Shown here: positions 11,811-62,699 of the stretch, in pieces
How the letters are laid out: the number at the start of each line of letters is the position of its first letter
How positions within the stretch are numbered: position 1 is the first letter of the stretch
DNA from: Nitrospinota bacterium
Lineage (GTDB): Bacteria; Nitrospinota_A; UBA7883; JACRLM01
Assembly (NCBI GenBank): GCA_016208975.1
Contig: JACQXA010000003.1
Coordinates: 1 to 64,000 of the forward strand
Length of the DNA: 64,000 nucleotides
Direction of reading: 5' to 3'
Made by a program: the position numbers and the translations under genes
The notes under the pieces: model-generated
Database searches by the model: none
Told to the model about the DNA's origin: nothing
Seen by the model: only the letters and a program-made list of their open reading frames with translations

Positions 11811-12115
11811 CTTCCCCGAGGTCGCCTGACCTCGGTTCCCGCTTCCCCGTGGTCGCCGACCACGGTTTCCCCTTCTCGCTTCCCCGTGGTCGCCTCGGGC
11901 TGTTGCCCAAATTGTTTCCCGCAATGTCACCCCGGCCAAGCGAAGCGCGAGCCGGGGCCACGACCTTATATGTATTTGAAAAAAGGCCCTGATCCCGGGT
12001 CTCCGCTTGCGCTACGCCCGGGACGACATCGCTGAAACGGCGCTAAACTATTTGGGCAACAGCCCGGCCTGACCTCGGTTCCCGCTACCCCGAGGTCGCC
12101 GGACCACGGTTCCCC
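11811..12115. repeat. Module A units interrupted by element E
   Basis: The 397-bp gap between the TPR protein and the kinase (11785-12181) holds module A palindromes with both GTGGTC and GAGGTC arms. They occupy 11811-11895 and resume at 12067-12115. The unit at 11883-11895 is split by a 171-bp element E. Bases 12116-12181 are unique and carry AGGAAG about 7 bp before the kinase ATG. Confidence 0.85.
11896..12066 (-). mobile_element. Element E copy 1 (171-bp MITE-like, intact)
   Basis: Both ends carry the 17-bp inverted repeat CGGGCTGTTGCCCAAAT. The element is flanked by a direct repeat GCCT (11892-11895 and 12067-12070). Removing the element and one GCCT restores a continuous module A unit. 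It has no coding capacity. Relative to the copies at 59.1 and 62.6 kb it is inverted. Confidence 0.9.
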
Positions 12116-58976: not shown

Positions 58977-59302
58977 GGTAGTGTCTCAGTTTGAAAGTGC
59001 AGGGGAGATTCTTCACTTACGCTCAGAATGACAATATAAAAGCCGTTGATAACATTGTCATCCTGAGCGAAGCGCAAGCGAAGTGAAGGATATGTCTGTT
59101 ATTTGACGGGCTGTTGCCCAAATAGTTTAGCGCCGTTTCAGCGGTGTCGTCCCGGGCGTAGCGCAAGCGGAGACCCGGGATCAGGGCCTCTTTTCAAATA
59201 CATATAAGGTCGCGGCCCCGGCTCGCGCTTCGCTTGGCCGGTGTGACATTGCGGGAAACGGTTCGGGCAACAGGCCGTTGAAATTCAAACTGGGACACCA
59301 CC
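58977..59302 (+). mobile_element. Element D copy 5, split by element E
   Basis: D copy 5 runs 58977-59106 and 59282-59302. Its ends are GGTAGTGTCTCAGTTTGAA and, inverted, GGTGGTGTCCCAGTTTGAA. Removing the 171-bp E element and one 4-bp TTGA leaves 151 bp, exactly the length of copy 4. Flanks TAAGATCG (58969-58976) and GAAGATCG (59303-59310) match at 7 of 8 positions, a probable target duplication. Confidence 0.92.
59107..59277 (+). mobile_element. Element E copy 2 (171 bp) inserted in element D
   Basis: It has the same length as copy 1. Ends are CGGGCTGTTGCCC and, inverted, CGGCCTGTTGCCC. A 4-bp direct repeat TTGA flanks it (59103-59106 and 59278-59281). The inserted position within D (between TATTTGA and the D right end) proves E moved after D. 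Confidence 0.92.
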
Positions 59303-62558: not shown

Positions 62559-62699
62559 CGGGCTGTTGCCCAAATAGTTTAGCGCCGTTTCAGCGATGTC
62601 GTCCCGGGCGTAGCGCAAGCGGAGACCCGGGATCAGGGCCTCTTTTCAAATACATATAAGGTCGCGGCCCCGGCTCGCGCTTCGCTTGGCCGGGGTGAC
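62559..62699 (+). mobile_element. Element E copy 3 (right end lost)
   Basis: The left terminal repeat CGGGCTGTTGCCCAAAT and the internal inverted motifs are intact. Similarity stops after GGGGTGAC at 62699, so about 30 bp including the right terminal repeat are missing. It lies between the kinase and mdh (gap 62533-62747), 48 bp after the mdh stop. Confidence 0.88.

Follow-up and report, generated by a model that had tools for sequence, protein, structure and literature searches.

Element E in the window

The window, a 64,000-nucleotide stretch, is positions 1–64000 of contig C3 in a host genome of 2.97 Mb and four contigs. It carries three copies of a short repeat, Element E (Table 1). The initial annotation had described two 171-bp copies with 17-bp terminal inverted repeats (TIRs) and 4-bp target site duplications (TSDs), and we recovered both, including the perfect TIRs and GCCT duplication of copy 1 and the TTGA duplication of copy 2. 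Its span for copy 1, 11892–12070, is the element plus both TSDs; the right TIR of copy 2 has three mismatches. A scan for the TIR 17-mer with at most three mismatches returned five matches in the window (0.38 expected; 0 of 100 shuffles), the fifth of which belongs to a one-ended third copy that had been missed. No ORF of at least 80 aa lies wholly inside Element E, and it has the other features of a miniature inverted repeat element (MITE): short length (below ~600 bp), multiple copies, TIRs and TSDs. The first internal hairpin matched about 25 separate places in the genome.

Excision in silico restored the interrupted unit at both sites, as had been claimed, giving a REP hairpin for copy 1 and a high-copy TIR element for copy 2. 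That copy 1 sits within a REP hairpin loop had been overlooked; this placement is part of a strong target preference described below.

Table 1. Element E copies and associated features in the window.
Feature	Position	Strand	Basis
Element E copy 1, intact, 171 bp	11896..12066	+	letters, TIR scan, copy comparison
Copy 1 left TIR, CGGGCTGTTGCCCAAAT	11896..11912	+	17-mer scan
Copy 1 right TIR, perfect	12050..12066	-	17-mer scan
Copy 1 left TSD GCCT, loop bases of the split REP hairpin	11892..11895	unstranded	
Copy 1 right TSD GCCT	12067..12070	unstranded	
Copy 1 internal hairpin GTCACCCCGGCC..GCCGGGG, dispersed REP-like repeat	11925..11956	+	element positions 30-61
Copy 1 second internal hairpin TGATCCCGGGTCT..CCCGGGACGAC	11991..12028	+	homologous TIR-less hairpin pair in L013
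Host REP hairpin GTGGTC[GCCT]GACCTC, split by copy 1	11881..12077	+	
Element E copy 2, intact, 171 bp, reversed relative to copy 1	59107..59277	-	
Copy 2 left TSD TTGA	59103..59106	unstranded	
Copy 2 right TSD TTGA	59278..59281	unstranded	
High-copy second TIR element, split by copy 2	58978..59302	+	
Copy 3, one-ended, 141 bp, single TIR, ends at internal hairpin edge GTGAC	62559..62699	-	

Copies across the host genome

Sequence searches and inspection of individual stretches of the genome gave seven intact copies of Element E inside contigs. Six of them, including both in the window, are exactly 171 bp, the length stated earlier, and one (C4:24275) is 175 bp. All seven have perfect 4-bp TSDs (GCCT, GCCC, CGGC, TTAA, GGGC, TTAA and TTGA). 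The genome also contains one-ended fragments, a TIR-less hairpin pair and a decayed copy at C4:386206–386371. Every copy without a TSD was truncated or decayed; an additional intact copy without one, which the initial annotation would have taken as contrary evidence, was not found. The intact copies are 95–98% identical to copy 1, which makes the recent mobility proposed earlier plausible but is not the direct evidence it was said to be.

For the TIR element hit by copy 2, 11 unsplit paralogues were read, most of which give the empty site directly (...TTATTTGAGATTCAAACTG...). The unsplit paralogues carry TTTGAGATTC at the copy 2 site, and the joined flanks of copy 2 read TTTGAAATTC. Element E was present in 0 of 144 relatives searched, so that orthologous empty sites were unavailable; the empty sites found are paralogous. 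The second TIR element has GGTAGTGTCTCAGTTTGAA ends and a length of ~145–150 bp when unsplit; it occupies at least 40 places in the genome at 96–98% identity, with apparent TSDs of ~8 bp, e.g. GTTTTTTA.

Contig C2 (210 kb) starts and ends inside Element E with a 108-bp self-overlap, and on reading the sequences, copy 3 apparently holds these 108 bases. Its genes include one for tRNA-Asn and many for polysaccharides; inspection by eye picked out none for plasmid replication. C2 could be a part of C3 that fits in at ~62.6 kb, and the window would then be misjoined there; the one-endedness of copy 3 should therefore not be over-read.

Most intact host copies lie in a REP hairpin

Four of the seven intact copies lie inside a GTGGTC-NNNN-GACCAC-like REP dyad, all in a single register, with the four central bases as the TSD. 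The host REP hairpin is CCGTGGTC-GCCC-GACCACGG; as single-stranded DNA it is predicted to fold into an 8-bp stem with the loop GCCC, and the TSD corresponds exactly to the four loop bases. The genome contains 36 perfect REP 16-mers and 19 with one mismatch, and a shorter form gave 50 perfect sites versus 1 for the control. The chance that at least four of seven copies landed in REPs randomly is ~1e-16 over the genome, or 3e-12 when landing is confined to 360 kb of assumed intergenic DNA holding 200 dyads. The remaining three copies, at TTAA, TTAA and TTGA, represent a second target class.

The host REP flanks a Y1_Tnp/RAYT-type gene on both sides, indicating that this REP family has a cognate RAYT. 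This gene (L219) lies at G000:C4 348126–349431 with the REP CCGTGGTCGGGCGACCACGGGGAAGC on either side, and the gene and its flanking REPs are probably a REPtron.

The ends of Element E occur on IS1182-family elements

Outside the host, more than 115 contigs, the majority from MAGs of Desulfobacterota/Deltaproteobacteria, Nitrospirae and Aminicenantes, contained the exact TIR 17-mer; part of the 115 exact matches (e.g. in Paenibacillus and Hymenobacter) are probably due to chance. In about 25 cases, paired 17-mer ends 56–355 bp apart with exact 4-bp TSDs delimited other MITEs. In other phyla, some MITEs that share these ends (L109 and L140, both from Nitrospiria, L185 and L117) enclose REP-like hairpins (GTCATTCTGAGCG...), as Element E does, and a hairpin core bounded by TIRs may be a design that recurs.

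A few end pairs were 1.56–1.74 kb apart, each enclosing a single transposase gene. The four transposases scanned (L102, L084, L125 and L121) scored 320–339 bits against NF033551 (IS1182 family; cut-off 270 bits) and also matched PF05598 and PF13751. All seven transposase loci having both ends (L231=L121, L232=L135, L234=L084, L235, L236=L125, L238 and L239=L102) carry the TIRs within 0–4 mismatches, and the complete element L125 has the TSD ACAT/ACAT. The 4-bp TSD of Element E is likewise that of the IS1182 element ISPse1 (DR 4; PMC3281130). Annotated plasmid IS1182 elements showed only ~30% protein identity, and their ends share just a TGTTG-like core. No homology of Element E to IS1182 was recognised beyond the ends, and a literature search for the exact TIR returned matches only in unrelated subjects. 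The PF13751 matches in genomes searched by kinship (L199–L218) were without E-type ends and were set aside.

The host genome gave no match to PF01609 (DDE_Tnp_1), PF13751 or the L102 transposase protein, while the PF13751 search found matches in 14 of the 60 genomes searched alongside. The element is thus non-autonomous as annotated, with no transposase found in the window or elsewhere in the assembly; the proposed search for its termini around a transposase gene led to IS1182-family genes in other phyla and to none in the host. Autonomous elements with matching ends occur in other genomes only. A cognate transposase in the same genome, a feature of IS1182-derived elements that a MITE does not require, was not found, so the pairing of Element E with IS1182 is drawn from end sequences that recur in other phyla, not from a cognate in the same cell. 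A search of 26 genomes with these ends yielded additional transposase copies, and 18 of the 26, like the host, had no matching transposase. We infer that the host transposase was either lost or lies inside an assembly gap; such gaps are few, and some fall at tuf genes.

Targets in other phyla

In other genomes, GTCA was found exactly 12 bases outside the TIR (−12) in 42 of 115 cases, compared with 0–6 at any other offset, and GGTC at −8 in 17 cases. The implied target outside the host would be GTCA-GGTC-TYRA-NNNN-TGAC. A different, apparently RAYT-linked REP, GTCAGGTC-TYRA-N4-TGAC, is where the ends gather in Desulfobacterota and Dadabacteria, in a single register. Empty GTCAGGTCTCAACATTTGAC sites exist in the same genomes and some adjoin RAYT-like genes; empty sites of the full GTCA-GGTC-TYRA-NNNN-TGAC form are repeated there, e.g. 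GGGTCAGGTCTCAACATTTGAC, with zero in the control. Those in L258, L256 and L270 adjoin a gene whose motifs, DNHYH and YIHLNP, read as RAYT-like. In the Dadabacteria genome G146, a 141-bp MITE (L148) splits such a target with TCAA duplicated, and three unsplit copies of its target sequence are present elsewhere in the genome. Landing sites are thus provided by two REPs, that of the host and this one, which are unrelated. The core common to both is GGTC-N4, followed by GACC in the host REP.

Two further elements with the same ends, L101 5175–5445 and L079 5463–5628, have perfectly inverted flanks (ACATCCTAA/TTAGGATGT and GTGGTCATGA/TCATGACCGC, respectively) and no 4-bp TSD, resembling the hairpin-related insertions of IS1272.

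Proposed mechanism and alternatives

We consider it highly probable (about 0.88), from sequence comparison, that Element E is a non-autonomous MITE whose movement depends on a DDE transposase of the IS1182 family, encoded elsewhere and preferring palindromic sites, above all REP dyads. Such a transposase would recognise the 17-bp end, cut the target with a 4-bp stagger and mobilise Element E in trans by cut-and-paste chemistry; it would have been lost from the host later. Landing at a palindrome centred on four bases, mainly a REP dyad, would leave the tetraloop duplicated. With less confidence, though we lean towards it, a subgroup of IS1182 elements and their MITEs may, in several phyla, treat RAYT REP palindromes as standing landing pads and insert at the dyad, so that only the 4-base loop is duplicated.

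The insertions into REP dyads might reflect recognition of a cruciform or hairpin structure, as proposed for IS1272, and not of the base sequence. Under such recognition the TSD would be the predicted tetraloop, as it is, and duplication of the loop is what 'pathway c' of the IS1272 model predicts, a modelled pathway only (PMC5678879); the perfectly inverted flanks and missing TSDs of L101 and L079 point the same way. Other targets argue against it: both host TTAA targets are predicted not to fold and the TTGA target only weakly. The Desulfobacterota/Dadabacteria target also has poor predicted folding, yet a strict sequence half-site, and targets outside the host showed no pairwise palindromy beyond the half-site consensus when compared with permuted half-sites (p = 0.60). 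These observations would favour sequence reading, and structure recognition appears to be the less likely basis of target choice.

Assignment of Element E to another DDE family, with ends similar by coincidence, is improbable. The IS5 group and IS1380 also produce 4-bp TSDs and use TTAA/TTGA-like sites, so these features of Element E are compatible with them, but only IS1182 transposase genes were found between E-type ends, at loci in different phyla, and the host has no PF01609 protein that we could find. Slightly less probable still is a REPIN/BIME-type element moved by a RAYT (Y1/HUH) transposase, an idea invited by the two internal hairpins, one of them in a dispersed repeat family, and by the RAYT encoded in the genome. 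REPINs and BIMEs are inverted REPs moved by RAYT without TSDs, whereas Element E has perfect 4-bp TSDs and 17-bp TIRs of IS1182 type, which are not expected from Y1/HUH transposition; moreover, what borders the RAYT gene is the other REP (GTGGTC-GCCC-GACCAC) and not the ends of Element E, which are found on IS1182 elements. Recombination between REPs carrying Element E, conceivable for repeated sequences, is a very poor explanation of the duplicated loop bases without transposition, given that the four REP-dyad TSDs (GCCT, GCCC, CGGC and GGGC) differ, each runs directly into the REP arm at its own site, and the flanks beyond the REP are unrelated.

Relation to known elements and significance

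As a kind of element, Element E is not undescribed, as had been stated: its ends match those of a subgroup of the IS1182 family found in other phyla, and IS1182-type MITEs of 159–169 bp with 4-bp repeats have been published (PMC11578231, PMC3852290). MITEPye1 of Paracoccus yeei (IS1182/ISPye18 type) is 159 bp long with 18-bp TIRs and 4-bp DRs; like Element E, it is intergenic, lacks an ORF and has IS1182-like TIRs, and its copies are 96–100% identical with a long stem-loop fold. It differs in its host class, in its 1–3 copies per chromosome and in the IS1182 relatives present in several host genomes, and the available part of that report does not mention the REP targeting described here for Element E (PMC11578231). 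The ISMac2-associated MITEs of Methanosarcina acetivorans are similarly IS1182-linked, with lengths of 160 bp (14 copies, DR 4) and 169 bp (7 copies), but have an archaeal host and IRs of 25–26 bp, and no target preference is given in the part of the source available (PMC3852290).

IS1272/TnSha1 of staphylococci also belongs to the IS1182 family and targets inverted repeats or hairpins (PMC5678879, PMC4923244). IS1272 replaces the inverted repeat, deleting all or part of the hairpin without a TSD, whereas Element E retains the REP arms and duplicates the 4-base centre. Insertion into REP palindromes has been described for the IS3, IS110, IS4, IS256 and IS5 families, and in some genomes an IS has most of its copies, or all of them, at such sites; IS1182 is not among the families of that study, while a MITE and autonomous IS1182 elements are both involved here (PMC1525189). 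A non-exhaustive literature search found no report of IS1182 targeting REP dyads with loop duplication. Thus, IS1182-type MITEs of similar size and TSD, IS1182 elements with 4-bp TSDs and hairpin targeting by IS1272/TnSha1 are already known, as are insertions of five other IS families into REPs; less ordinary is the landing of more than half of the intact Element E copies in a REP dyad with the loop copied on both sides.

These results assign an orphan repeat to a transposase family and link two repeat systems. If the loop-duplicating outcome is true, it would realise the hypothetical IS1272 pathway, and target choice would nest HUH-type REPs with DDE-type IS1182, a mobile system unrelated to them. 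If the aim at REP dyads is true, the REPs would provide an intergenic landing pad renewed by another transposon, on which elements could multiply without gene disruption. The insertions also offer a natural data set for asking what IS1182 transposases recognise, sequence or an extruded hairpin, a question dating from IS1272.
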